A stretch of DNA of 64,000 nucleotides from Marinilactibacillus sp. Marseille-P9653. GTDB lineage: Bacteria; Bacillota; Bacilli; Lactobacillales; Carnobacteriaceae_A. The notes under the pieces were generated by a model. The model ran no database searches. It was not told the DNA's origin and was given only the letters and a program-made list of their open reading frames with translations. Position 1 is the first letter of the stretch; every line of letters starts with the position of its first letter. The DNA is taken from positions 1,723,005 to 1,787,004 of the forward strand of contig NZ_CAKAKH010000001.1 in assembly GCF_916618885.1 (NCBI RefSeq). Reading direction: 5' to 3'. Below are positions 11,985 through 51,780 of the stretch, piece by piece. The position numbers and the translations under genes were made by a program.

Positions 11985-12614
11985 TTAACCCATGTCTTTT
12001 ACTTTCATCAAACGTGTGATAGAAGCACGTTCTGCTTCATCAAGTTTCATTTGAATAAAGTAAATGGTTTCTTCAAGTTGTGGAATTGTCATGAATTCAA
12101 GTGCATTTACACGACGTCTAGTTTTTTCGATTTCATCAGCCATCAATTGACAAGTTTTCTCAATTTCAGCTAACTCTAGCATGTCTGGCATAACTTCAAC
12201 CAGATATTCAAAGGTCAGATCTAATTCACCATTGGAATTCAGATATCCATAACTTAAGTCTTTTGGATCCCCAGCATTGTCATCATATTGAAAATGCATT
12301 TGAGGAACTCGAACACTCATGATATTTTTCTGATCAATGTTTAGATTAACACTTTGAGTCGGCACTGCCATGAGCTCTTCAATAAAGTTCTCATGAACAA
12401 GTGACTTAGCCATCGCAAAAGATTGCATAGCTTTAGATAGTTTTTCTTCCACTTCGATACGCAATTCATTGTTTTGACGAATCAACGTAATGAAACGTCT
12501 CATCAGTTCATCTTGCTTATCTTTGAGGAGTTTATGTCCTCTAGAAGCTAACGAAAGACGATCTTTAAGGTTTGATAGTTCCATTCGAGTGGGGTTGACA
12601 TTTAATTTAGCCAT
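11985..12614 (-). CDS. ntpD: V-type ATP synthase subunit D
   Basis: Central-shaft subunit linking A3B3 catalysis to rotation of the membrane ring. The 209 aa begin with the family signature [16 protein letters not shown] and are dominated by long coiled coils at both ends, the C-terminal one passing through [18 protein letters not shown]. It is the last gene of the ntp operon, 5 bases after ntpB and directly before the terminator. No ntpH or ntpJ follows, unlike E. hirae. Confidence 0.96.
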
Positions 12615-12619
12615 TTACC

Positions 12620-13996
12620 TCACTCTCCTTTTGGTAAATATTTATCCAGCATATCATCCTTGATACGTTTCAGTTCACCACGTGGCAAGACTTTCAATAA
12701 GTCCCATCCTAAATCAAGTGTTTCTTGAATCGAACGGTTTGCATAGTTACCTTGATTTACGTATTCTTTTTCGAATTTGTTCGTAAATTCAACATAACTA
12801 CGGTCACTTTTAGACAAAGCAGCTTCCCCAAGTACTGCAGATAATTCTTTCGCTTCTTTACCTTGTGCATAAGCGGAGAAAATCTGGTTCATTGTAGCTG
12901 AGTGGTCTTCACGTGTTTTACCTTCACCAGTACCTTTATCTTTCAAACGAGAAAGAGAAGGTAGTACATCGATTGGTGGTTGATACCCTTGGTTGAATAG
13001 GTCACGAGACAGAATGATTTGTCCTTCTGTGATGTAACCCGTTAAATCGGGAATCGGATGCGTGATATCTTCTTCGGGCATTGTCAGGATTGGAATCTGA
13101 GTAACAGATCCTTTAGATCCTTCCAGACGTCCAGCACGCTCATATAATGTTGCTAAGTTGGTATACAAGTAACCAGGATATCCACGACGACCAGGAACTT
13201 CACGTCTAGCGGCAGAGATTTCACGAAGTGCTTCCGCATAGTTTGTCATGTCAGTCATGATAACTAAAACGTGCATATCTTTCTCAAAAGCTAAATATTC
13301 AGCAGCTGTTAGTGCCATACGAGGTGTTGCAATACGTTCGATTGCAGGATCATCTGCCAAGTTGACAAATAATACTGAACGATCAATTGCGCCGGTTTTC
13401 TTGAAATCTTCCATGAAGAATTCAGCTTCTTCAAACGTAATACCAATTGCAGCAAATACAACGGCAAATTTGTCATCAGAATTTGTAACACTTGCTTGTC
13501 TAGCAATTTGAGCCGCAAGCTCTTTGTGTGGTAAACCAGATGCAGAAAACACAGGTAGTTTTTGTCCACGAACCAAAGTGTTCAAATGATCGATCGTTGA
13601 GATACCAGTTTGAATAAATTCATCTGGATAATTACGTGCAATCGGGTTAATTGCAATACCATTGATATCTAAACTTTTTTCAGGGATAAGGTCTGGTCCG
13701 CCATCGTTTACGCGGCCCATTCCATCAAACGTACGACCGATCATATCTTCAGATACGTCTAGTGATAGAGGTCTACCTAAAAAACGTACTTTAGTATCTT
13801 TCAAGTTAATACCAGTTGACCCTTCAAATAATTGAACAACAGCATTCTCACCGTTAATTTCAAGTACTTGTCCACGTCTTCTAGTACCGTCTTGAAGTTC
13901 AATATCAACAAGTTCATCATATTTAACACCTTCAACACCGGTAACGGTCATTAAGGGTCCGACTATTTCGGAAACTGTTTTATACTCTTTAAGCAT
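12620..13996 (-). CDS. ntpB: V-type ATP synthase subunit B
   Basis: Non-catalytic nucleotide-family subunit of the A3B3 hexamer. The 458 aa contain the beta-barrel start [39 protein letters not shown], and a degenerate P-loop region [14 protein letters not shown] that lacks GKT, as expected for [19 protein letters not shown] is also present. It overlaps the end of ntpA by 8 bases, implying coupled 1:1 synthesis. Confidence 0.97.
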
Positions 13997-15773
13997 CTGA
14001 CTCTACACCACCTTTTTCAATAACCTTTTGAATCGTTTCTTCTGTTTGTTTACGAATATCAGCGAAACGAGAAAGTTCTTCTTCAGGGATAAATTTAGAA
14101 CGTCCGATTCTTTCACGGATTTCTTCAGTACCCTCATTGATTTCATCATAATAAGCACCTAAGTCCATTGCACGAAGAGCTTTATCTTGGAAATCAAGAA
14201 TCGTTTCAATCATTTCAAATTGTTTCTCACGAGAAGTATACGTATCAACATCATCAAACGCATTTTGTTGTAGGAAATCTTCACGAATCATTCGAGCAAC
14301 AACTAATTTCAGTCTGTCTTTCTCAGATAAAGACTCAACCCCAACTAAACGAACGATTTCTTGAAGTTCTGACTCATCTTGTAGTAAAGATTTCACTCGT
14401 GTAACTTTACCGTTCCAGTCAACATTTAATTTATTACCAACATATTCATTCATTTCATTTGAATATAAAGAATACGAGCTTAACCAGTTGATAGATGGGA
14501 AGTGACGTCTTTGTGCAAGTGATGAATCAAGACCCCAGTAAACTTTAGCTACACGCAAAGTATTTTGTGTAACGGGCTCTGAAGTATCTCCACCTGGAGG
14601 TGAAACGGCTCCGATAGCTGTGATTGATCCTTCACGTCCTGTTGAACCTAAAGAAACAACTTTGCCAGCTCTTTCGTAATACTCAGCTAAACGACTACCT
14701 AGATAAGCCGGGTAACCTTCATCCCCTGGCATCTCTTCTAGACGACCAGACATTTCACGAAGTGCTTCTGCCCAACGAGAAGTTGAATCTGCCATGATGG
14801 CTACTGAGTAACCCATATCACGGAAGTATTCAGCAATTGTAATACCAGTATAGATAGAAGCTTCACGTGCTGCAACGGGCATATTAGAAGTGTTGGCGAT
14901 CAACACAGTTCTTTCCATGATTGATTTTCCAGTATTAGGATCAATCAATTCAGGGAACTCGTTGATAACGTCCGTCATTTCATTACCACGTTCTCCACAA
15001 CCAACATAAACAACTAAATCTACATCTGCCCATTTAGCGATCTGGTGTTGTACAACTGTTTTTCCGGCACCAAATGGTCCAGGAACTGCAGCTGCTCCAC
15101 CTTTTGCAACAGGGAATAATGTATCAATAACACGCTGTCCAGTAATTAATGGTTCAACTGGGTTTAATTTACGTTGAATTGGACGACCACGTCTAACGGG
15201 CCATTTTTGAATCATTGTGAATTCTTTGTCGCCATTTTCAGTTTCAATAACATATAGTGGATCTGTAAGTTTATACGTTCCACTAGCAATTGATTTAACT
15301 GTTCCATTAACACCATTTGGTACCATGATTCTGTGTTCTAATACACTAGTCTCTTGAACAGTACCTAAAATATCTCCAGAAACAACTTCAGTTCCTACTT
15401 CAACTGTAGCTGTGAATTCCCATTCTTTATCTCTGTTCAGTGGCTTGATTTCCATACCACGTTCCAAGAAGTTACTTTGTGTTTTGTCCATAAATTCATC
15501 TAATGGTCGTTGAATACCATCAAACATTTGCGCAATCATTCCCGGTGCAAGCTCAACTGACAATGGTTCTCCAGTCGTTTCAACTTTTTCACCAGGTCCA
15601 ACCATTGAAGTCTCTTCATATACCTGAATAGATGCGATATCTCCTCGCATTTCAATGATTTCACCAATCAATCCTAAATTACCTACTCGGCAAATATCTT
15701 GTATATTAGCTGATTCCATATCTTTAGCCGTAACTAAAGGTCCGGAAACACTAACGATTGTTCCGTTACTCAA
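13989..15773 (-). CDS. ntpA: V-type ATP synthase catalytic subunit A
   Basis: Catalytic ATPase subunit. The 594 aa show the N-terminal barrel, the A-subunit-specific bulge domain (about 110-190), Walker [12 protein letters not shown], the catalytic-Glu region [28 protein letters not shown], and [17 protein letters not shown]. The start is TTG (15773) after AGGAGG. It is followed by ntpB with an 8-base overlap and preceded by ntpG. Confidence 0.97.
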
Positions 15774-15785
15774 ATTCGTACCCTC

Positions 15786-16097
15786 CTATAAAATATTTTG
15801 ACCCACAGCTTTTTCTACGTTTTCTTGGACACGTTTCTTCCCAATGCCGCGTGAACCAGCATGATTCGGGATCAAAATGATGGCAGGTGTTAACTTAGCA
15901 TCATATCTTCTTATCGTATCTGGGATCAGTTCTGCCAATTGCTCAGTTAAATAAATAACCCCGTATTTCTGGTCTGCGAGTTTGTCAATCGTACGTCTGG
16001 TCTCTTTTGCTTCAGAAGCAAAATATACATCGAACCCAAGCATTTTGAATGCCAATACAGATTCTCTGTCTCCAACAACACCAATTTTACTAGGCAT
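15786..16097 (-). CDS. ntpG: V-type ATP synthase subunit F (NtpG)
   Basis: Small shaft-associated subunit that binds the D subunit. The 103 aa begin SKIGVVGDRESVLAFKMLGF, the typical Rossmann-like opening of the family, and contain YGVIYLTEQLAELI. It sits between ntpC (8-base overlap) and ntpA, exactly as in E. hirae. The E. hirae name is used; many databases call it subunit F. Confidence 0.93.
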   Translation of the reverse strand: MPSKIGVVGDRESVLAFKMLGFDVYFASEAKETRRTIDKLADQKYGVIYLTEQLAELIPDTIRRYDAKLTPAIILIPNHAGSRGIGKKRVQENVEKAVGQNIL

Positions 16098-17091
16098 AAT
16101 TCAATCGCATCCTTTCTCTAATTCCATCGGCAGAAACGCCGTTTTCCTTACCAGAGAGAATGAGACGTAGATTTTTGACTTCAGTTTCTTTTGCGTAAAT
16201 AAAAGCTACAATCGGTAAAGGACCGAAAGACTTCAATTTAGCATCTTGCATCATTTTCATATAGGCATTATCAATTTCAAAATCTAGTTTCACTGGTGAA
16301 ATCTCGTTTGTATCAGAGTCAACAGATGCTTCAATGATTGATTTATACTTAGTATCTTTCAAAGTGTTTGCAGCTGTACTCATATCTTTATTCGCAATAT
16401 CCACAAGATCAGCTTTTGGAATAGAACCAGAGCTAGACAAAATCGTAACCAAGAAGTTACGTGTTCTATTCTGTTTCATTGCTCGAGTCAGTGTAGATAA
16501 ATTCTGGAAATCGATAAAAGTCTCAACCATTTCTGGTATACCTTGCTCACCGGTTTCGTCAGCAAGTATACGCATATGACTGAAGAATCGACGATCTAAA
16601 ATAATGTCTATTGACTGAGTATTCTGGTACTCATCGTAGTCCGTTTGTACTTCATTTATACTATCCAAGTAAGGCTGAGGAAGAACGTCTGAAGTTCCTG
16701 TTCTAACGGCTTGTCTCAATTCAGAGATATCGTAACGTCCAATTGGGATAAACAGGTGATCCAAATCTTGTTCTGTAAACTCCTCTTTGAATAACACTTT
16801 TAGATTATGGTATGCATAACGTAAGCCAAAAACTTCTACTAGAGCTTTATTTGGTGAGATTTTAAATAACTCATCAAATGTTTGGTGTAACTCATTCATT
16901 AGCATGGTGTCATAATCTTTATCCTCTTTTATTCGATCAACATCATTTCTATATGGGGTTTCACGTAGTACATTTACAGCATCCTCAAATGAGTCAGCTG
17001 CCAGCATACGGTCATAATGTCCCCGATTAAGGAGGTTATTTTCATACACACGAATGAGTACATTACTTGAACCATAAGCGGTATCTTTCAA
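16090..17091 (-). CDS. ntpC: V-type ATP synthase subunit C
   Basis: Socket subunit joining the central shaft to the membrane rotor (eukaryotic d-like). About 333 aa, rich in helices, with YENNLLNRGHYDRML near the N-terminus and FIYAKETEVKNLRLIL near the end, both typical. The frame is open to a TTG at 17112, but the better start is TTG at 17091, which stands 8 bases after AAGGAGG. That site lies just downstream of the ntpE stop. The start choice is inferred from spacing. Confidence 0.93.
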   Translation of the reverse strand: MKDTAYGSSNVLIRVYENNLLNRGHYDRMLAADSFEDAVNVLRETPYRNDVDRIKEDKDYDTMLMNELHQTFDELFKISPNKALVEVFGLRYAYHNLKVLFKEEFTEQDLDHLFIPIGRYDISELRQAVRTGTSDVLPQPYLDSINEVQTDYDEYQNTQSIDIILDRRFFSHMRILADETGEQGIPEMVETFIDFQNLSTLTRAMKQNRTRNFLVTILSSSGSIPKADLVDIANKDMSTAANTLKDTKYKSIIEASVDSDTNEISPVKLDFEIDNAYMKMMQDAKLKSFGPLPIVAFIYAKETEVKNLRLILSGKENGVSADGIRERMRLNYA

Positions 17092-17104
17092 GTTTTTCTC
17101 CTCC

Positions 17105-17686
17105 TTAAACAAATAATTCTTTAGTTATGATCGGTACAATTTCAGATCTAGCATCTTCAATCAATGCATCGAATAAGAAATTGTATTCAATACCTTCTAT
17201 CTGAACTAGCAATCCAGCTTCATTTTGAACCGTTTCGTTTGAAAGAGTCGCTTCAATTGATGAGCCAGTTGCACTTTCCAACCATGCTTGGTCGATTAAA
17301 CCGACTGTTTTAGAACCTAGTACAATGGTTACTTTACTTTCTGATTGGAATTGAGAAATAACATCTTTTGTAAACTGTTTAAAAGCTGCTTCGTTAATTT
17401 GGTCTAACTCAACTTTAGCATCTTCCAAAACGCGTGAAAGGATTGCTTGTTTAGCAGATAAGACATCATTTCTTTTTTGAATCTCAAGCGTATTGTTACG
17501 AATCGTATAGTTTTGTTGTGCGTTTTCGTCAATTGTTTGCTTGCGCGCAATTTTATCTTGCTCTGCTTTAGCGCGAGCCGCCTGAACTTCATCTTCAGCG
17601 TTTTTGCGTGCTTCTTCAACACGTTGACGAATAGCTACTTTTTCTTTTTCAATAACTTTTTCTGTCAATAATTTTAAATCCGCCAT
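17105..17686 (-). CDS. ntpE: V-type ATP synthase subunit E
   Basis: Peripheral-stalk subunit that with the G/H subunit (ntpF here) forms the stator. The 193 aa have a long charged N-terminal coiled coil (about 10-95, including VEEARKNAEDEVQAARAKAE) and a compact C-terminal domain with VTIVLGSKTVGLID. The ATG follows TAAGGAGG. Composition and position between ntpK and ntpC support the call. Confidence 0.9.
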   Translation of the reverse strand: MADLKLLTEKVIEKEKVAIRQRVEEARKNAEDEVQAARAKAEQDKIARKQTIDENAQQNYTIRNNTLEIQKRNDVLSAKQAILSRVLEDAKVELDQINEAAFKQFTKDVISQFQSESKVTIVLGSKTVGLIDQAWLESATGSSIEATLSNETVQNEAGLLVQIEGIEYNFLFDALIEDARSEIVPIITKELFV

Positions 17687-17778
17687 ACTGAACCTCCTTA
17701 GTATTTCTTCTTTCAGTAAAGAGTAAAGATTACGTTCAATACGGTCTTTACTCTATTAAAGAAGTGATTCTATTTTTA

Positions 17779-18252
17779 TTATAAGATGATCATTACTAAG
17801 GAAATAACGAATCCTAAGATTGCATAAGTCTCAACCATTGCTGAGTAGATGATACCTTTAGTAGTGTGTTCTGGTTTTTGAGCTAAGATTTGCATAGCTG
17901 CTGCAGAAACGCGTCCTTGGTTACCGCCTGAAGAAAGACATGTGAATGCTACTGGTAATCCAGCCATAAACAGGTACCAACCTTCTGATACTGCTAATTC
18001 AGGAGTGATTTGTAGGAAAATCAAGAATCCGATAACGAAACCGTAAAGACCTTGTGTTGCTGGTAGCATTTGTAGTACTAACGCACGACCAAATGATTCT
18101 GGTTGTTCTTTTGTTAATGCTGCTGCAGCTTCACCGGCAATTGCTACCCCGCGTGAAGATCCGATACCTGAAAAGATAACAGCCATAGCTATTCCTAATC
18201 CTGCAAAAATTTGACCCATGTTGTCACCTAAAAGTGTTTGTAAAAATTCCAT
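17779..18252 (-). CDS. ntpK: V-type Na+-ATPase membrane rotor subunit K
   Basis: Forms the rotor ring that carries ions. The 157 aa contain four transmembrane helices as a duplicated hairpin. Comparison with remembered E. hirae NtpK shows all its Na+ ligands kept with an offset of two: L63, T66, Q67 and Y70 in LPATQGLYGF, Q112 in NQGRV, and E141 in MVETYAILGF. This predicts Na+ rather than H+ coupling. It is followed by a 92-base gap before ntpE, allowing separate expression of this high-copy subunit. Confidence 0.95.
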   Translation of the reverse strand: MEFLQTLLGDNMGQIFAGLGIAMAVIFSGIGSSRGVAIAGEAAAALTKEQPESFGRALVLQMLPATQGLYGFVIGFLIFLQITPELAVSEGWYLFMAGLPVAFTCLSSGGNQGRVSAAAMQILAQKPEHTTKGIIYSAMVETYAILGFVISLVMIIL

Positions 18253-18272
18253 TATATTATTCCTCCATTAAT

Positions 18273-20231
18273 TTAATTAGTTTCTTTTTTTAACCAAATG
18301 TGTTTTTCAAGTGTTTTAAGAGGGGTTAATGGCTTACCGCCACCCTCGAAGAATTTACCGAAAAATTCCACGTATTGTAACCTTGATGAATGGACATATG
18401 CACTCAAGAATGATAACGCAATGTTCATTCCTTGAAGAGCAATGATCAATACTACCCCGATCGTGAATCTGAACAGTGGCGGTAAGAATCCGATAATCAA
18501 GTTAAAGGCCATTGCGATGTTCGCACTTGCTACACCCAATGCCATTAAACGAGTATAACTGACGACGTCTCCGACATAACCAGTAACACCGTACAAGTTG
18601 TATAATCCCAATCCGAATCCAAGACCTTTGTTTTTACTGGAAATTGTTGATACGACAATAATCCCTACAACATTAATCAGTGTTAAACCAAGACCAACTT
18701 GAGAAACAATTGGTATATTGAAGACCATTGAGCCTAGAACGTAAACAACAAGTCCCAGTAGCATCATTGCCCAAGCATAACCGTCTACATAACTAGAAGC
18801 TCTTTGTCCTTGACGATTTTTGATAATTCCGTTCATAACTAACCCAAAAATCAATTGGATTACACCAAGAGCAACAGATAAAATCATGACTTCAATGACG
18901 TTATCTTGCAGTGAAAGCACGTGAAAAGGTAACGATATTCCAAAGAAACTTCCGAAAAACAGTCCGAATGCCATAGTAGGATACGATAGTATATGAAGAA
19001 ACTTCATAAATCTTCTCGTAGAGCCTTCCACACTGAAGAATTTCAATGCGACAAAAGTAACGAGTCCAAGCAAGACTCCGTATCCTAGATCTGCTCCGAT
19101 CATACCGAAGAAAATCATGAAGAACGGGAACATAAGTGGTGTTGGATCGACTTCATTGTATTTTGGCAAACTAAACATTTCAGTAATCAATTCGAATGGT
19201 TTGATTAAATTGCTGTTTTTCAAGACGATTGGAACCTGGTTGAATTCTTCCATTTTCACATCGTCTATCATAACGACAATACTATCTTCTCCAAGTTCAG
19301 AATGAAGAGTATTTTTCAATAAATCAACTTTCTCTTCTTCAATCCATCCACTAGCAATAAATAAGTGTTCACTATTTAAAACTAAGTCTTTAGCTAAATC
19401 TCTTTGCCCGAGATTATAGTAATATTCTTCTGCTAATTCAAGATCTTTAACAAGTGATTTCCACTCTTTCATTTCTTTTTTAGCAGCGGACTCTTCTTCA
19501 CGTAAACCTTTTTGAGCATTTAAATTAGCATATAATGCATCTTCTGGTAACAAGTCATACGTGTATTTTAGTTCTCTGAAACTTAATTCTATAACGAGTT
19601 TATTGAAAGCTTCTTCATTATCCTTTGGAACAATAATCATATAAGCAGATTCATCTTGTCTACTATAAATTTCTTCAAAGTATACAGTAGCTAACTCATC
19701 TAATCCTTGGGTTAATAAAGGTGCATGTTCATTATCAACTGTTCCGATGTGAACATTCAACAACTTAAGTCCTTTAACTTCTTGAGGAAGGAAATTAAGT
19801 CCGCGCCATTTTCTTAAAAATGATTCTTCTTCTTGGAGAGCTTTTCTCTGCTCTTCAATTTGATTCAACTTTTGTTCTCTTGAATTCACTTTTTCGATCA
19901 AAGCATCCACGTCTACGTTTGAAACATGGCTCTCCAATTCTTCCAAAGAGAAAACATCACGCTTTGTCTTTAATTTTTCAATTGTTCCAGGTTGAGGAAC
20001 ATACTTGTTAACATAAGTGATCGCGTGTTCAATATCTTGAATCTTTGTTTGGAAATCCGCAGTTTCTTTGTAAGAGTCTGTGACTTCAAACTGATCAAGA
20101 ATTTCTTCTTCTAAAACATCCGATAGTGAAATGACTTCGATACTCTGCATTTCTTGAATAGAACGCAACAATGTTTCTTTGTTCTGTTGCTCGGCCATCA
20201 AAGTCAGTTTTTTCATTTTAGCGATTGCCAT
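18273..20231 (-). CDS. ntpI: V-type ATP synthase membrane subunit I (a-type)
   Basis: Stator membrane subunit supplying the ion half-channels. The 652 aa comprise a soluble N-terminal half with coiled coils (about 1-340) and a C-terminal membrane half with about seven or eight helices. Key segments are PTPLMFPFFMIFFGMIGADLGYG, given here as residues about 365-387, the GDVVSYTRLMALG helix and the terminal HSSRLQYVEFFGKFF with its conserved Arg. It overlaps ntpF by 14 bases. Confidence 0.96.
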   Translation of the reverse strand: MAIAKMKKLTLMAEQQNKETLLRSIQEMQSIEVISLSDVLEEEILDQFEVTDSYKETADFQTKIQDIEHAITYVNKYVPQPGTIEKLKTKRDVFSLEELESHVSNVDVDALIEKVNSREQKLNQIEEQRKALQEEESFLRKWRGLNFLPQEVKGLKLLNVHIGTVDNEHAPLLTQGLDELATVYFEEIYSRQDESAYMIIVPKDNEEAFNKLVIELSFRELKYTYDLLPEDALYANLNAQKGLREEESAAKKEMKEWKSLVKDLELAEEYYYNLGQRDLAKDLVLNSEHLFIASGWIEEEKVDLLKNTLHSELGEDSIVVMIDDVKMEEFNQVPIVLKNSNLIKPFELITEMFSLPKYNEVDPTPLMFPFFMIFFGMIGADLGYGVLLGLVTFVALKFFSVEGSTRRFMKFLHILSYPTMAFGLFFGSFFGISLPFHVLSLQDNVIEVMILSVALGVIQLIFGLVMNGIIKNRQGQRASSYVDGYAWAMMLLGLVVYVLGSMVFNIPIVSQVGLGLTLINVVGIIVVSTISSKNKGLGFGLGLYNLYGVTGYVGDVVSYTRLMALGVASANIAMAFNLIIGFLPPLFRFTIGVVLIIALQGMNIALSFLSAYVHSSRLQYVEFFGKFFEGGGKPLTPLKTLEKHIWLKKETN

Positions 20232-20544
20232 ATCGACGCACTACCTCCTCTGCTATTCGATTGGCTAGAGCATTTTTGTTCTCTTGATAAGCCTGTTCGA
20301 ACCGCTCTGCTTCTCTACTAGCGGATTCATCCATTTCAGCTTTGTCTTTCTCTAATTTACTACTGTAAATTTGCTCTTGCTCAGACTTGTATTCTGACAA
20401 CTCTGTTTCAAGTGCTGTTCGAATAGATTCAACTTCTTGAGCTGTTTCTCTTTCGATCTGCTTGATTTCGTCATCAGCGTCTTTCCGTAATTGAGAAGCG
20501 CGTGCTTCAGCGTCTTTTACATAATTAATTGCCTCACGGTTCAT
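20218..20544 (-). CDS. ntpF: V-type ATP synthase subunit G/H (NtpF), peripheral stalk
   Basis: Coiled-coil partner of subunit E in the peripheral stalk. The 108 aa are almost entirely a charged heptad-rich helix (KDAEARASQLRKDADDEIKQ onward) ending RIAEEVVRRYGNR. It is the first gene of the operon. The ATG follows GGAAGGAGG. The function rests on position and helical pattern, since sequence conservation in this subunit is low. Confidence 0.85.
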   Translation of the reverse strand: MNREAINYVKDAEARASQLRKDADDEIKQIERETAQEVESIRTALETELSEYKSEQEQIYSSKLEKDKAEMDESASREAERFEQAYQENKNALANRIAEEVVRRYGNR

Positions 20545-20562
20545 ATCGTGCCTCCTTCCGCC

Positions 20563-20627
20563 AAAAAGGGCGCAACTAACAAGCCTCTTCTCACCCCAGA
20601 AGAAATTATCCTTGAAAGCTCACGCCC
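20563..20627 (-). promoter_or_regulatory. Structured leader with a possible attenuator before ntpF
   Basis: On the minus strand the V-ATPase leader folds into nested helices: GGGCGT (20627-20622) pairs with GCGCCC (20573-20568), GAGCTT pairs with AGGCTT, and TTCTTCT pairs with AGAAGA. The outer stem is followed at once by TTTTT and then by the ntpF ribosome binding site. This is the layout of a factor-independent attenuator. No competing antiterminator was found by eye, and no known riboswitch class is recognised. Confidence 0.5.
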
Positions 20628-20662
20628 AACCGCATTAATATTTTATTTCGACTACGAGTAAC

Positions 20663-20691
20663 ATAATACCATACGTCTCACAGGATTTCAA
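20663..20691 (-). promoter_or_regulatory. Promoter of the V-ATPase operon
   Basis: Minus strand: -35 TTGAAA (20691-20686), 17-base spacer, -10 TATTAT (20668-20663) with the extended TGG in front. Predicted start is near 20656, giving a 5' leader of about 110 bases that includes the structured element. Confidence 0.7.
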
Positions 20692-21041: not shown

Positions 21042-21071
21042 TTGACAAACGGAATGCGTGTTCGGTATAAT
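21042..21071 (+). promoter_or_regulatory. Consensus sigma-A promoter of the YolD-like gene
   Basis: -35 TTGACA (21042-21047) and -10 TATAAT (21066-21071) are both perfect, with an 18-base spacer. Such a strong promoter is normally held down by a repressor. SOS-like boxes overlap the spacer and the predicted start site. Confidence 0.85.
21051..21064 (+). promoter_or_regulatory. SOS (LexA) box-like operator 1
   Basis: GGAATGCGTGTTCG lies between -35 and -10 and matches 11 of 14 positions of the Bacillus SOS box CGAACRNRYGTTYC. Its core is GAAT-N4-GTTC. A second box follows at the transcription start, and uvrB in this window has a similar GAAT-N4-GTTT box. Confidence 0.5.
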
Positions 21072-21076
21072 CTATT

Positions 21077-21090
21077 TAAACAAACGTTCG
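21077..21090 (+). promoter_or_regulatory. SOS (LexA) box-like operator 2
   Basis: TAAACAAACGTTCG covers the predicted transcription start and matches 11 of 14 positions of CGAACRNRYGTTYC. With box 1 it would let LexA cover the promoter. It was identified by eye only. Confidence 0.5.
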
Positions 21091-21102
21091 GGAGATGAGC
21101 TC

Positions 21103-21417
21103 ATGGAAAAATTTGCAGTTGAAAAAAATCAAATTCTTCATTATTTCAAAGAAACTTATTTAAATCGTAGTCACTTTGCAGTTCACAAACAAATGCCAGC
21201 TTTACAGCTAAGACATTTCATCAAACAAGCTGTGCGCAAACAGAAACTTATTACTATACAATTGAATCCATCTGCACACGACTCATCCATATCCGAATGT
21301 ACTGGAACAGCTTCTTTTTCTCCTTATAGTAGCCAAATTATATTGAATAGCCATAATAGTAATACTGTTCATTTGATAAACAGTGATCAAATCAGACACA
21401 TTAGACTTGCTAATTAA
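21103..21417 (+). CDS. Small protein, possibly YolD-like
   Basis: The 104-aa product is not firmly recognised. The start is ATG 21103, 7 bases after GGGAGATG's core; an in-frame TTG/ATG-type extension upstream runs through the promoter and is rejected. The N-terminal half is helical and basic (YFKETYLNRSHFAV, RHFIKQAVRKQK). The C-terminal part alternates like a small beta barrel (GTASFSPYSSQIIL, then VHLINSDQIRHIRLA), resembling the end of YolD-like proteins, which usually precede Y-family polymerases of the UvrX/PolYB kind. Here no polymerase follows, only a terminator. SOS-like boxes in the promoter agree with a DNA-damage link. The family call is tentative. Confidence 0.6.
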   Translation: MEKFAVEKNQILHYFKETYLNRSHFAVHKQMPALQLRHFIKQAVRKQKLITIQLNPSAHDSSISECTGTASFSPYSSQIILNSHNSNTVHLINSDQIRHIRLAN

Positions 21418-23241: not shown

Positions 23242-23811
23242 TTAATTTTTTGATTTAGGCACAAACATAGATGAAGCTCTATCGAATAATAACACCAATA
23301 CAATAATTGTGACCGCTATGGTTGCGAGCATACTCGCTCCGTTGAATAGTAGCGAAAACGTTACAGGATCAAGCCCCCACACTGCATAGTCTCCAAAAAA
23401 GAATACACCAGCTACAAAATGCCAGAACCAGCGGGCAGCTGATCCTATGAATGTCGTAATGATCAAATATTTTTTAGCGGTACTTAGTGAATTTTCTTTT
23501 ATATTTTTGACGATGGTTTGGCTAAAGTAACCGGAAAACCCAACACAAGTGAAAGCAAATCCATATTCAATAATAAATTGATAGATATTCAATATATAAG
23601 CTGTTCCAGCTACTACATGCAAGATTCCCCACAAAAACCCAGCAAATAAACCAGGTAACACGCCTCTTCTGATTGCAAAAAAGGTCAACGGAATCGTACC
23701 TAAAGAAACACTAAAAGAGGCTCCAATCCCTACTGGTATTAAAGACAAAATCATAGCTATGGCCGCAAACAATGTCCCTTCAATATAAACTCTTAACTTT
23801 TCGTTCTGCAT
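23242..23811 (-). CDS. thiT: Thiamine ECF transporter substrate-binding subunit ThiT
   Basis: S component that captures thiamine and works with a shared ECF energising module encoded elsewhere. The 189 aa are very hydrophobic, with about six membrane helices. Family motifs are seen: IPLTFFAIRRGVLPGLFAGFLWG, given here as residues about 42-64, the thiamine-contact YGFAFTCVGFSG region, and ARWFWHFVAGVFFFGDYA near 126-143. The start is ATG 23811 after AGGAGGAG; a longer frame to 23871 would run through the regulatory hairpin and is rejected. A TPP riboswitch stands upstream. Confidence 0.95.
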   Translation of the reverse strand: MQNEKLRVYIEGTLFAAIAMILSLIPVGIGASFSVSLGTIPLTFFAIRRGVLPGLFAGFLWGILHVVAGTAYILNIYQFIIEYGFAFTCVGFSGYFSQTIVKNIKENSLSTAKKYLIITTFIGSAARWFWHFVAGVFFFGDYAVWGLDPVTFSLLFNGASMLATIAVTIIVLVLLFDRASSMFVPKSKN

Positions 23812-23817
23812 ACAAAA

Positions 23818-23855
23818 ACTCCTCCTATAGATACTATGTATACTAGAGGAGGAGT
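23818..23855 (-). promoter_or_regulatory. Shine-Dalgarno-sequestering hairpin of thiT
   Basis: On the minus strand ACTCCTCC (23855-23848) pairs perfectly with GGAGGAGT (23825-23818), which contains the thiT ribosome binding site; weaker pairs extend inward. No U-run follows. This is the expected OFF structure of a riboswitch acting on translation. Confidence 0.8.
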
Positions 23856-23905
23856 AAATTCTTATCATCATAGCAAAAAAGCAAAAAGATACTTTTAGAC
23901 ACTGA

Positions 23906-24001
23906 TTCTAGGTACTCTCCCTACGCACGTACGAACGTACAGGTTCAAAGGGTCTGGACTAATAGTCCACTCTCAGCCAATTTAATTGGCTCCCCTAGTA
24001 C
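23906..24001 (-). promoter_or_regulatory. TPP riboswitch (THI element)
   Basis: Read on the minus strand, the conserved landmarks occur in order: TACTAGGGGAGCC, then GGCTGAGAGTGG, then ACCCTTTGAACCTG, then GCGTAGGGAGAGTACCTAG. P1 forms from CTAGG and CCTAG. The variable arm before GCGTAGGG is a short GTACGTTCGTAC hairpin. It sits 95 bases upstream of thiT and downstream of rnjB, and would shut off thiT when thiamine pyrophosphate is plentiful. Confidence 0.95.
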
Positions 24002-24022
24002 AAATAGTTAATTTATCGCGAT

Positions 24023-26991: not shown

Positions 26992-29115
26992 TTATTCTTT
27001 TTCAGCTTCTGGTTCTTTCGCTTCAAGAACAGCTTTTCTGGAAAGATTCACTCTGCCCATTTTATCAACTTCTGTTACTTTAACTTCAAGAACATCCCCA
27101 ACTGAAATCACATCTTCAACATTCTTGATGTATTTATCAGAAAGTTCGGATACATGGACTAATCCATCTTTCCCTTTGATGATTTCTACAAATGCGCCGA
27201 ATTTTTCAATTCTCTTAACGGTTCCTTTGTAAATTTTTCCAACTTCTACTTCTTCAGTCAATTGCTCGATGATTTCGATTGCGCGTTGAATTGCACTAGC
27301 ATCTTGACCGTAGATAGAGACTGTTCCTTCTTCATCGATATCAATCTTAACGTTTGTTTCAGCGATGATACCGTTGATCGTATCTCCACCTTTACCAATA
27401 ACCACTTTGATTTGTTCTGGCTTGATTTTGATTGATTCAATTTTCGGTGCATATGCACTCAACGCAGTGCGTGGAGCTGCAATAGCCGCTTCTAGATTAT
27501 CAAGAATCTCAAGACGAGCTTTTTTAGCAGAAGTCAATGCTTCTTCTAAGATCTCTCTAGTGATTCCTTCGATTTTAATATCCATTTGTAGCGCTGTGAT
27601 ACCTTCTCTTGTTCCAGCAACTTTAAAGTCCATATCGCCAAGGTGATCTTCTAGCCCTTGGATATCAGTCAGTACGGTGTAATCGTCACCTTCCATAACC
27701 AATCCCATTGCGATACCGCCAACTGGTGCTTTAATCGGTACTCCAGCGTCCATCAATGCTAATGTCCCTGCACAGATACTTGCTTGAGAAGAAGAACCGT
27801 TTGATTCAAGTACTTCTGCTACTAAACGGATCATGTATGGGAATTCTTCTTCACTCGGAATCACTTGTGCTAAAGCTCTTTCTCCTAAAGCTCCGTGCCC
27901 AATTTCACGACGACCTGGTCCTCTTACTGGTCCAGTACTTCCTACAGAAAATTGCGGGAAGTTATAGTGATGGATGAATCTCTTGCTGCTTTCACTTCCA
28001 AGACCATCAATAATCTGGTGCTCATTAAGTGGTGCAAGTGTGGCAACAGATAATGCTTGTGTCTGTCCACGAGTAAACAGCCCAGAACCATGAACACGAG
28101 GAAGAATAGAAACTTCTGATTCAAGTGCACGAATTTCATCGACTTTACGTCCATCAGGTCTAACGTTTTCTTGAGTGATCAAACGACGTACTTCATCTTT
28201 TTCCATATCAGACGCAATTGCCTTAACATCTTTCATCATGCTATCTTTTTCTTCATGATCAGCTAGTTTTTCTTGATAAGCTTCAATAATTTCTTGCTTA
28301 ACAGCTTCTGTTTTTTCAGCTCTTTCTTGCTTATCAAAAGTTTGAATAGCTTCTTTCATTTGATCGTTGTAAGCTGAAGTGATTTCTTGTTTAAGATCTT
28401 GATTTGGAACAGAAAGGATGACTTCCATTTTTTCTTGTCCAAGTTCTGCTACAATTTTTTCTTGGAATGCTACAAGTTCTTTGATTGCATCATGTCCGAA
28501 AAGCAATGCTTCAAGCATGTCTTCTTCTGAAACTTGTTCTGCTCCACTTTCAACCATGTTAATTGCTTCTTTAGTACCTGCAACTGTTAAGTGAATATCA
28601 GACTGTTCTGTTTGCTCTTCAGTTGGATTGATTACAAGTTTTCCATCTACTCTACCTACATTGACACCTGCAATTGGTCCATTAAACGGAATGTTTGAAA
28701 TACTTAATGCTAATGACGAACCAAGCATAGCTGTCATTTCTGGAGAATTGTTAGGATCAACAGACATTACTGTGTTGGTAATTTGAACTTCATTACGAAA
28801 TCCTTCAGCAAACATTGGACGTAATGGTCTATCAATTAGACGAGCAGTTAAGGTTGCATTTTCAGAAGGACGTCCTTCTCTTTTGATAAATCCACCAGGA
28901 ATTTTTCCAACTGAGTACATTTTTTCTTCATAACTAACCATTAACGGGAAAAAGTCACGGTCGCTAGCTTGATTGCTTGCTACTGCAGCAGTTAATACGA
29001 CAGTATCTTCATATCTAAGTAATGCAGCACCATTGGCTTGTTTGGCTAATTGACCGATTTCTACTGTTAAGGTTCTTCCACCGATTTCGGTTGAAAATAC
29101 TTTTTTATCTGACAT
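26992..29115 (-). CDS. pnp: Polyribonucleotide nucleotidyltransferase (PNPase)
   Basis: Phosphorolytic 3'-5' exoribonuclease central to RNA decay. The 707 aa contain two RNase PH domains separated by a helical domain (active-site landmarks [21 protein letters not shown] segment near 80-95 and [15 protein letters not shown] near 405), a KH domain ([17 protein letters not shown]) and an S1 domain ([20 protein letters not shown]). It lies downstream of rpsO as in most bacteria, with a terminator-like hairpin between them. Confidence 0.98.
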
Positions 29116-29395
29116 TATATTCTCCTTTTGATCTTTATTGACAGGAAGTTCGTTCTACTAAACAAATGTCATTTTTCCTATTAAAAAAATCACATTTGCA
29201 TAGTAGAGAATCAAATCTTCCCGATTTTTCCAAATTTTGACTATAAAGAAAGCGAGATTCAAAAGAATCCCGCTTTTTTATAAACCAAATCCAGCTTATA
29301 AATCCGGATTCGCTATTAAGATGATGGCAGGCGTATATATCTTTACCCGCATATCCATCTAACTTTTATAACTAAGCGGTTTATATAGCCTTTTA
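29116..29395. terminator. rpsO-pnp intergenic region with hairpin terminator
   Basis: A hairpin at 29249-29276 pairs AAAGCGAGATTC with GAATCCCGCTTT around an AAAA loop. T-rich tracts flank both sides, so it can end rpsO transcripts. The segment 29285-29395 holds short imperfect repeats such as AATCC/GGATT that may fold. This may limit or process read-through from rpsO into pnp. No small gene is seen. Confidence 0.7.
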
Positions 29396-29665
29396 TTAAC
29401 GACGTAGTCCTAAACGTTGGATCAATTCACGGTAACGTGTGATATCTTTGTTACGTAAATAAGCTAACAAGTTACGACGGTGACCGATTTTTTTCATTAG
29501 TCCACGCATAGAGTGGAAATCTTTTTTATGTCTTTGAGCATGCTCATTCAATTCGTTGATATCAGCAGTCAATACAGCGATTTGCACTTCTGGAGAACCA
29601 GTATCTCCTTCGTGACGAGCATATTCTGACATGATTTGTGTTTTAAGTTCTTTTGTTATAGCCAT
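29396..29665 (-). CDS. rpsO: 30S ribosomal protein S15
   Basis: Primary 16S rRNA-binding protein of the platform. The 89 aa begin with [20 protein letters not shown] and contain [20 protein letters not shown] and the [17 protein letters not shown] region, all invariant in the family. The length is exactly that of bacterial S15. Confidence 0.98.
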
Positions 29666-29783
29666 TTCACTACACCTCTTCCTCTTTTTTTGAATCCAGT
29701 TACTGAGATAACGTTGGTGTTACGTTTATCCAAGTAATGGTCTGTGTTCTAAAGTCTGAATCAAACGAAAAGTCTTTTTCAGT

Positions 29784-39398: not shown

Positions 39399-39552
39399 CA
39401 AAAAAAGCTCTCTTATCCTTGTGCGATAAGAGAGCTTCCTAATGATTTGTTAGGTTTAAAGATGAAGGTACACTTCACCCATGAATCTCCACTAAAAGCT
39501 TATATAAACTGCTCTGAATGAAGGTTCTGCTCCTTATTAGCCTCACAGGACT
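39399..39552 (-). promoter_or_regulatory. PyrR-dependent attenuator in the pyrR leader
   Basis: The minus strand carries a binding loop AGTCCTGTGAGGCT (39552-39539), then about 100 bases further a strong terminator, AGCTCTCTTATC / GATAAGAGAGCT (39436-39406), with a T-run. It precedes pyrR itself, so the regulator's own gene is under the same feedback. Confidence 0.88.
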
Positions 39553-39585
39553 ACTTATTAAAGGATATCTATTAACTTTTCATTT

Positions 39586-49888: not shown

Positions 49889-49953
49889 CTAATCATTTAT
49901 ATTTGTTAAAATCGAGTAGGAGGTAAATCATTAATTGATTTACCGTCCTCTCA

Positions 49954-49989
49954 CACCACCGTGCGTACGGTTCCGTACACGGCGGTTCA
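49954..49989 (-). other. Group II intron domain V
   Basis: Minus strand: ACCGCCGTG pairs with CACGGTGGT, capped by TACGG/CCGTA. The catalytic triad reads CGC, the form found in class C introns rather than the AGC of IIA and IIB. It begins on the TGA stop of the reverse transcriptase gene. Confidence 0.85.
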
Positions 49990-51282
49990 ATACCTTGCGC
50001 AAGCTGACTCTACCAAGGAGCTTAAAGAGACTAAGCCCCAATGGTGGAGTCTTTTCGTTATAAGTGCCTGATGAACTACAGGCGTCATGGATAGCCTCCA
50101 GTACTTCTTGCGGGAAAATCCGATTCTTCTAGCACTATCCATATCCAATCCATAGCTGAATAACTTCGTTATTTTCGTTTTGCTTTTCTTCCATTTTTTG
50201 AGTATCAGCTGTCTGATTCTATGATGTAACCATTGTTCTATCCGTTTTATGAACATTTTGATAAATCCAAGACCAAAATAGCCAATCCACCCTCGAGTCA
50301 CTTGATTGATTTCCTTTATAATAACTTCAAAGGTTCCGGAACGTTTACGACTCGTTAGTCGTTTGAGTGTTCGTTTAAATTTCTGTTTGGCTGATTTTGT
50401 AGGGATAAAACGACAGGTTCCATTCACTTTCCTTATCAGACAGCTCAAGAACTTTAAACGAGTAGGAGACCCGACTTTACTCTTATCTTTGTTAACGATT
50501 AGTTTCAAATCTTTCTCGATGAATTGTGTCACACTTTGTATCACACGTTCACCTGCTCGTTTAGATTTCACATAGATGACGAAGTCATCCGCGTAACGAA
50601 CAAATCGATGACCACGACGGTCTAGTTCTTTGTCCAGTTCATGTAAGTAAACATTGCTGAGAAGGGGCGAGAGTACGCCACCTTGCGGTGCGCCTGTTTT
50701 ACTTTCTACGAATTCGCCAGACAGGTCTATGACACCACTCATCAAAAACTTACGGACAACCTTTAAAATCGCTGTATCTTGAATAAAGGTTTCAAGATGG
50801 TACATCAGTTTATCATGACTTAATGTATCGAAACATTGTTTCAAGTCACAATCGACCACGAATTTATATCCTTCTTCGTAATAATCTACACATTGCTTCA
50901 ATGCTGTATGGGTTCCTTTATTCGGTCGGAATCCATGACTTTGCGGAAGAAAGTGCGGGTCAATCAGTGGTTCAATCACTTGTTTGATAGCTTTTTGTAC
51001 AACACGGTCACGAACGCAAGGAATACCGAGTTTACGTTTATCTCCGTTTGGCTTAGGAATTTCAACTCGTTTAACGGGTTGAGGTTTATAAGTTCCATTA
51101 AGGAGTTTCTGCCTCAATGGCAGATAAATTTCTTCAATATGTTCCTCGACTTCCCATACTGTCATACCGTCTATCCCAGCTGCTCCTTTATTACGTCTAA
51201 CTTTCGTGGCAGGTGTCGATAGATTCTTTCTACTTACAACGAGCTCCATCAAAGATGGAGACTTACGATACAGTTCTTTCAT
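49987..51282 (-). CDS. ltrA: Group II intron reverse transcriptase/maturase
   Basis: Multifunctional protein for intron splicing and reverse transcription. The 431 aa show RT blocks GAAGIDGMTVWEVEEHI, the RT3-like SHGFRPNKGTHTAL, catalytic FVRYADDFVIY (YADD), GAPQGGVLSPLLSNVYL, and a maturase X domain (TRGWIGYFGLGF). There is no H-N-H endonuclease domain, as expected for class C. It appears intact. The nearly 500 bases upstream of its start are ribozyme domains. Confidence 0.95.
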   Translation of the reverse strand: MKELYRKSPSLMELVVSRKNLSTPATKVRRNKGAAGIDGMTVWEVEEHIEEIYLPLRQKLLNGTYKPQPVKRVEIPKPNGDKRKLGIPCVRDRVVQKAIKQVIEPLIDPHFLPQSHGFRPNKGTHTALKQCVDYYEEGYKFVVDCDLKQCFDTLSHDKLMYHLETFIQDTAILKVVRKFLMSGVIDLSGEFVESKTGAPQGGVLSPLLSNVYLHELDKELDRRGHRFVRYADDFVIYVKSKRAGERVIQSVTQFIEKDLKLIVNKDKSKVGSPTRLKFLSCLIRKVNGTCRFIPTKSAKQKFKRTLKRLTSRKRSGTFEVIIKEINQVTRGWIGYFGLGFIKMFIKRIEQWLHHRIRQLILKKWKKSKTKITKLFSYGLDMDSARRIGFSRKKYWRLSMTPVVHQALITKRLHHWGLVSLSSLVESACARY

Positions 51283-51780
51283 TTGACCTAGAAGGGTACT
51301 CTACACATCTACATACTCTTTCGGTTCCACCTTATCCCTCTGTAGATTGCCAACCATTCGGTTGTTTTCTGCAGTAAACGTCCCTTCTAACCTCCAATCT
51401 ATACTTTGTATTTGATATTGTTTGGTCCTTCAGTACATTTTCCCTACTATGACCTCGGCTGACTTCTGCCTATTCGTTGTTACTACGACCGAACGGTCGC
51501 TAGACAGACCTCCCCGGGTAAGAACGACAACCTTCCGCTCATGTCACTGCTTCATTTACTGTACAGGATTCGTGCAGTATTGGACTTTACTTTGTTTAGC
51601 AAGCTCGTCCGTCCTGATTCAGCCTTGATATGAAGTTTCTGTTCGTCAGTGCGAGCATTTGCGTCCGACTTCCTTCAGATTCCGCCTCACGGCGGACACC
51701 CTTGTCTTTCGCTAACAGTTCCTACTGCCAAGCCTGTAGTGGACTTTCACCACCAAGTTGTCGCCCACGCCGGGCGCACT

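Follow-up and report, generated by a model that had tools for sequence, protein, structure and literature searches.

A probable Na+-I riboswitch in the V-ATPase operon leader of Marinilactibacillus, with predicted exchange of stem P1 in the expression platform

The Na+-I riboswitch class was described by White et al. (2022, PMC9337991). According to the text of that paper, the element of kefB is an ON switch, mutating either the AA at the base of stem P1 or the GG in the loop of stem P2 abolishes the Na+ response, and the effect of Na+ on the reporter is stronger at high pH. Representatives of the class are carried by V-ATPase genes of enterococci and clostridia, Enterococcus faecalis EF1492 being the Term-seq example cited there. 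Hence the class, its ligand, the terminator logic and the location before enterococcal and clostridial V-ATPase genes are already in print in the text of PMC9337991.

Here we consider the leader of a V-ATPase operon in a 64-kb stretch of the genome of Marinilactibacillus, below called the window. It is similar to the enterococcal and clostridial V-ATPase elements described in PMC9337991, EF1492 included, both in the aptamer class and in the kind of operon. It also shares a two-stem aptamer and adjacent ion transport genes with the Li+-I and Na+-II riboswitches (the nhaA-I motif) as described in the text of PMC9646797, but scores as RF03071. As in the HMP-PP riboswitch, going by the title of PMC6478431, the aptamer and the terminator share a stem-loop, P2 of the window leader being located inside the predicted terminator, although both the ligand and the aptamer are different. 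In the predicted fold of the window leader we do not find the P2-exchange platform of the kefB type: the kefB terminator described in PMC9337991 displaces P2, whereas the one predicted here displaces P1 and retains P2. The text passages of PMC9337991 and PMC9646797 covered here contain no description of a form with P1 exchange, and a literature search for Marinilactibacillus together with riboswitch yielded no paper. Thus, the locus belongs to a known class and is a possible variant of its expression platform; new at most would possibly be the split between P1 and P2 exchange seen in the predicted folds. The leader has the following features.

20663..20691, minus strand: candidate promoter of the sigma-70 type (consensus scan, 10 of 12 positions) with the -35 box TTGAAA at 20691-20686, a 17-base spacer, the -10 box TATTAT at 20668-20663, and TG one base 5' of the -10 box
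20585..20631, minus strand: 47-nt match to the Na+-I riboswitch aptamer (Rfam RF03071, DUF1646 motif)
20612..20629, minus strand: stem P1 from the Rfam alignment, short, with GUGA as the cap; UUG and GGC at 20629-20624, GUGA at 20623-20620, and GCU, a UU bulge and CAA at 20619-20612
20585..20604, minus strand: stem P2 from the Rfam alignment, 7 pairs, with the loop GGGGUG
20563..20627, minus strand: predicted intrinsic terminator (minimum-energy fold and family alignment), GGGCGU (20627-20622) with GCGCCC (20573-20568), AGCU with AGUU, and CAAG with CUUG, stacked on P2
20567-20563, minus strand: U-run of the terminator, UUUUU
20551..20559, minus strand: Shine-Dalgarno sequence of ntpF, GGAAGGAGG, read from the sequence three bases 3' of the U-run

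The initial annotation had delineated a leader of about 110 bases with nested stems closed by GGGCGT/GCGCCC, followed by TTTTT and then by the ribosome-binding site of ntpF, and all these elements are indeed found at their places on the minus strand. Its limits coincide with the end of the U-run (20563) and, at 20691, with the first base of the -35 box in the promoter-like site that scores best; transcription would start near 20656. The GGGCGU/GCGCCC stem represents the terminator state, the sensor being an alternative fold of the same bases.

When the whole window was scanned against all Rfam families, the leader matched RF03071 with 48.5 bits (cut-off, 40.5 bits; E = 5.9e-7 for the 64-kb window). 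The alignment is full-length (model positions 1-55 of 55), and the leader matches the conserved positions GGUUGGGC, GCUUUCAAG, CUUC, GGGGUG and GAAG. The similarity to the Na+-I class as presented in PMC9337991 comprises the match to the full model, the layout of P1 and P2, the CAAG and GGGGUG motifs, the overlap with an intrinsic terminator, and the Na+ pump genes located 3'; a difference from the reference of that paper is the short P1 capped by the GUGA tetraloop. Both CAA, at the base of P1, and GGGGUG, in the loop of P2, are present in the Rfam alignment of the leader. The suggestion of an ion-dependent attenuator made earlier for this leader was therefore right in kind, as the sequence evidence points there, but not in holding that no known riboswitch class fits, since the match to RF03071 is full-length and exceeds the curated threshold; the enterococcal setting invoked with it does not apply either, the host being Marinilactibacillus, not Enterococcus.

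When E values up to 10 were allowed, the leader also matched other Rfam families, but we took these matches for chance, as they are far below the respective cut-offs (AfaR, 19.5 bits against 100; Entero_OriR, 15 against 80; L31, 14.5 against 33.3; S15, 13.1 against 39.5). The same search reported no match to the nhaA motif in the leader even at E of 10, and no second RF03071 element was found in a search of the genome (2.55 Mb, 5 contigs).

We conclude that the leader is very probably a Na+-I riboswitch that turns on the operon of a Na+-pumping V-ATPase by preventing early termination. By analogy with the published class, it would bind Na+ and act in the ON direction; the predicted folds suggest that the stem exchanged with the terminator is P1 and not P2. 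Immediately 3' of the leader, there are nine open reading frames in one direction.

20218..20544, minus strand: ntpF, the first gene, 108 aa, the ATG starting at 20544
11985..20231, minus strand: the rest of the V-ATPase operon (open reading frames and family searches)
18273-20231, minus strand: ntpI (family search)
17779-18252, minus strand: ntpK (family search, aligned to E. hirae NtpK)
17105-17686, 16090-17112 and 15786-16097, minus strand: three open reading frames, which from the E. hirae gene order we take to be E, C and G
13989-15773, minus strand: ntpA (family search)
12620-13996 and 11985-12614, minus strand: two open reading frames, by the same assumption B and D

The product of ntpF has no Pfam or NCBIfam match at 0.001, and the gene was named by its place and by its relatives 5' of NtpI in the family loci. 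In a comparison with E. hirae NtpK, for which the Na+ ring has been solved (2BL2), the window NtpK scores 181.7 bits. All five Na+ ligand residues of the E. hirae protein are identical in the alignment. We take their numbers in E. hirae to be L61, T64, Q65, Q110 and E139. These observations bear on the possibility that the aptamer, while belonging to RF03071, senses another ion, e.g. Li+. White et al. leave room in their text for representatives with altered specificity (PMC9337991), and the related nhaA-I class is described in the text of PMC9646797 as having both Li+ and Na+ forms. However, the positions conserved in the Na+-I model are matched by the leader, and the pump encoded in the operon has Na+ ligands; hence we consider a different ion highly improbable. 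As for Na+ itself, the ntp operon of E. faecalis was reported to be up about 6-fold in 6.5% NaCl (text of PMC3995695), and a Na+ pump rising with Na+ fits an ON switch.

To describe the distribution of the element, we considered 148 related genomes. It is present in 75 of them (83 matches), 64 genomes being above the cut-off. In 54 of the 83 cases the element precedes a V-ATPase (tblastn to NtpI, E below 1e-5), and the first open reading frames following the remaining elements include, by inspection, KefB-like antiporters, P-type ATPases and genes resembling Na+/Ca2+ exchangers. One genome, G091, has four RF03071 matches (L063, L069, L088, L102), which precede V-ATPase, P-type ATPase-like and antiporter-like genes.

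In the family of the window, the element is found in 20 of 27 genomes, each time 5' of NtpF/NtpI. Among the seven family genomes with no element detected, the NtpI match is strong in three (G005, G012 and G016; two of these genomes are only 85% and 72% complete), weak in two, and missing in two. Thus, the pump does not require the element, as judged from the strong NtpI matches in these three genomes, and this counts against the proposed role. Of 398 genomes drawn from the class of the window, 9 have the element, all of them from the order of the window; hence it is rare outside this order. In a draw from class Clostridia, it occurs in 22 of 391. The link between the Na+-I class and the V-ATPase is thus extended to Marinilactibacillus, Alkalibacterium and Lacticigenium. 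Marinilactibacillus and Alkalibacterium are salt- and alkali-tolerant bacteria, and with this element, the coupling of the Na+ pump to the internal Na+ level in Marinilactibacillus could be put down to a known sensor.

The family alignment comprises 20 leaders, of which 19 are distinct sequences; in this automatic alignment, one gap beside P2 is misplaced in six rows, the terminator columns being unaffected. Among the 19 distinct sequences, 99.6% of the cells in aptamer pairs are paired. For P2 this fraction is 99.2%, with 2 pairs changed on both sides, while all 6 pairs of P1 are invariant, so that covariation cannot be seen there, which is a point against the reading. In the terminator, 97.0% of the cells are paired, compared to 24-53% when one side of the stem is slid by 1-3 columns. 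The changes are mostly one-sided (GC to GU), and the single pair changed on both sides is matched by 26 of 500 shuffles. The earlier expectation that the stems should be conserved and covary in relatives is borne out in its first part but hardly in the second: judging by the aligned sequences, stem conservation within the family is strong, and terminator covariation is weak, with one two-sided pair. Between genera the element is conserved, whereas the rest of the leader around it is variable. All 20 family loci have a stem with a U-run after it and, by prediction, a terminator fold with exchange of P1. The same loci also all have TG and a best promoter-like pair 5' of the aptamer (a raw count with no shuffle control), the pairs scoring 9-12 of 12 and ending 27-39 bases 5' of the aptamer.

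Folding gave a mixed outcome for the stems seen in the initial annotation. Stronger evidence than the fold energies is provided by the full-length match to RF03071 and by the retention of the stem in the predicted folds of the 20 family loci. For 20633-20563, minimum-energy folding returns the nested stem (-25.9 kcal/mol, z = -2.35), with 3 of 200 shuffles being as stable, but the energy of the whole 112-nt leader is within the shuffle range (z = -1.27; 20 of 200), and the latter is a point against a switch. Another such point is the U-run being only five bases long, and the site is absent from the list produced by a simple terminator scan that allowed for loops of 3-8 bases only. If the leader contained a chance stem or a constitutive weak attenuator with no ligand control, the unremarkable energy of the full leader would be as expected. 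However, neither would account for the full-length match to the curated family RF03071, nor for the conservation across genera amid a varying leader; on these two grounds, the fold energy alone being insufficient, we rejected this explanation and give it next to no credence.

The regulation by the probable Na+-I riboswitch could proceed as follows. RNA polymerase would start near 20656 and produce first the 47-nt aptamer with P1 and P2. At high internal Na+, the ion would bind and clamp P1 and P2, so that the arms of P1 would be occupied and transcription would read through into ntpF. At low Na+, the bases made next (CUUG..AGUUGCGCCC) would pair with the arms of P1 and pull it apart, and the invading tail, stacked on the surviving P2 hairpin, would complete the terminator together with UUUUU, so that an RNA of about 94 nt would be released. 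The build-up of Na+ would then lead to more pump being made. The predicted energies are -9.3 kcal/mol for the aptamer fold against -25.9 kcal/mol for the terminator, the arms of P1 being common to both. In the minimum-energy folds of the growing transcript, a P1-type hairpin (GGGC/GCUU) and P2 are seen until the RNA extends 56 nt from the start of the aptamer, and the tail invades P1 from 58 nt onwards. Na+ bound during this stretch of transcription would keep P1 together, so that the polymerase could read on. All these folds are minimum-energy predictions that include neither Na+ nor tertiary contacts, which is a point against relying on them.

Control might instead act at the ribosome-binding site of ntpF, as its Shine-Dalgarno sequence starts just three bases 3' of the U-run, and the ribosome site is the presumed target of the related Li+ classes (text of PMC9646797). 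However, the Shine-Dalgarno sequence lies clear of the terminator stem and is mostly unpaired in the predicted folds, and every one of the 20 family loci has a stem with a U-run after it. We therefore regard control at the ribosome-binding site as very unlikely, and return to termination as the preferred mode.

As mentioned earlier, the terminator could compete with either of the two aptamer stems. We classified the predicted terminator folds by the native pairs kept, with at least 8 bases required between the aptamer and the U-run. P1 is lost and P2 is kept in 65 of the 83 elements from Lactobacillales, the rest being 2 elements with both stems kept, 11 mixed and 5 with no qualifying U-run. 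In the Clostridia sample (n = 29), P2 is lost and P1 is kept, as in the published kefB model, in 21 elements; among the others, 5 are mixed, 1 keeps both stems, and 2 are of the opposite type (L125, L131). As to the mixed elements, those from Lactobacillales (11) have the tail paired for the most part with the P1 arms, and those from Clostridia (5) have it paired with P2. The Clostridia sample consists of 27 matches from the 22 genomes in the draw of 391 (taken from the class to which G148, with a Ruminiclostridium hungatei locus, belongs) and of two others; two further G150 matches with no locus were left out.

This was the third and final classification. By the first one, P2 was kept, P1 lost and the tail placed in P1 in 72 of 79 elements, four of the 83 having no U-run by its rule; the second, using another rule, yielded 58 of 83 for Lactobacillales and 14 of 29 for Clostridia, and often halted at a U-run 2-4 bases past the aptamer. 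As the rules were changed after the results had been seen, the counts are descriptive, and the classified loci are related rather than independent. In an earlier set, the P2 form was observed in 7 of 9 clostridial or Bacillota loci, the other two folds having stopped at a U-run too near the aptamer.

The pairing partners of the 14 bases that immediately precede the U-run show the same tendency: they are located in P1 in 838 cases, in P2 in 111, and downstream in 24 for Lactobacillales, compared to 11, 293 and 46, respectively, for the Clostridia sample. When the spacer between the aptamer and the U-run was shuffled, the pattern with P1 lost was still seen in 404 of 1560 folds. For 78 loci of Lactobacillales, we counted long-range pairs of the tail with the 5' arm, the averages being 12.4 for the own tail, 9.8 for swapped tails (own higher in 70 of 78), and 6.4 for shuffled tails (own higher in 78 of 78); since the pairs were taken from each predicted fold, the count leans towards pairing, and the tail swap is the fairer control. 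In an energy-only version, applied to 72 loci chosen for fitting the pattern, the values were -13.4 kcal/mol for own, -9.3 for swapped, and -6.9 for shuffled tails. At arm positions 8-11, GC, AU, CG, UA and GU pairs are predicted in different loci (GC, AU and CG at position 8), and these changing pairs of the modelled stem are covariation across the order. For the window leader, the own tail is equalled in pairing by 30% of foreign tails, which is expected where near relatives share the arm.

The apparent exchange of P1 could be an artefact of minimum-energy folding, the terminator actually exchanging with P2 as in kefB, where according to the text of PMC9337991 it forms only at the expense of P2, this architecture being present in other representatives too. 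However, with the P2 pairs forbidden, the window tail still pairs with the arms of P1 in the best fold (-18.0 against -25.9 kcal/mol). Besides, the same procedure recovers the exchange of P2 in the 21 of 29 Clostridia elements, and so is able to see it. We find this explanation very unlikely for the window leader, and consider it rather probable, as far as predicted folds go, that the Na+-I aptamer is coupled to termination in opposite ways in two branches of bacteria, elements of Lactobacillales losing P1 and keeping P2, and those of Clostridia losing P2 and keeping P1. If so, one conserved Na+ pocket between P1 and P2 would be read out from either side, the window leader being a clean example of the form with P1 exchange, and the kefB picture would not be general for the Na+-I class. 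Two opposite couplings of one aptamer would then lend themselves to a comparison of how an ion bound only weakly (mM) can prevail over a strong terminator in the course of transcription.

A different arrangement is observed in six ntp leaders of Enterococcaceae (L060, L066, L069, L071, L074, L076), five of them from one genus, with NtpK 93-99% identical to that of E. hirae. In these leaders, no U-run comes directly after the P1-exchange stem. Instead, at 69-81 bases past the aptamer there is a second, strong hairpin of its own with the U-run behind it, whereas in the window the U-run directly follows the first stem. Within this second hairpin, the 5' arm includes a stretch resembling a copy (ACUUUCAA in several leaders); by pairing with the tail of the aptamer (UUGAAAGU and variants), it could play the part of an antiterminator. 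Compared with shuffled tails, the six leaders yielded fractions from 0.048 to 0.716, in a weak test with shortened arms. Some Enterococcaceae, those nearest E. hirae, may represent a third type of coupling: here the P1-exchange stem would act on a further terminator, located distally. Two other ntp leaders, L099 and L100 (genomes G036 and G131), have two successive U-run terminators; in the second hairpin, the 5' arm shows a 9-base complementarity to the aptamer tail UUGAAGUGC, with no such case in 500 shuffled tails (0/500).

Several other elements were observed in the window. The region 21042-21417 (plus strand) contains a divergent open reading frame of 104 aa (21103-21417) with no Pfam match, preceded by a perfect TTGACA-18-TATAAT and by imperfect GAAC-type palindromes, which in our view presumably recall an SOS box. 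A match to rliD, a Listeria antisense RNA (RF01494), at 28939-29196 (plus strand; 68.2 bits, cut-off 50) is opposite the start of a pnpA-like gene (26992-29115, minus strand) and may reflect conservation of the coding strand only. On the minus strand, there are a TPP riboswitch (23900-24006, 72.7 bits) 5' of an open reading frame for a small membrane protein (23242-23871), which by eye looks like a thiamine transporter; an S15 leader (29609-29713, 41.6 bits); a PyrR binding site (39399-39568, 54.6 bits, just over the cut-off of 54); and pieces of a group II intron at 49911-51696 (RF00029, 49911-49987; RF01998, 51425-51487; RF02001, 51523-51696).
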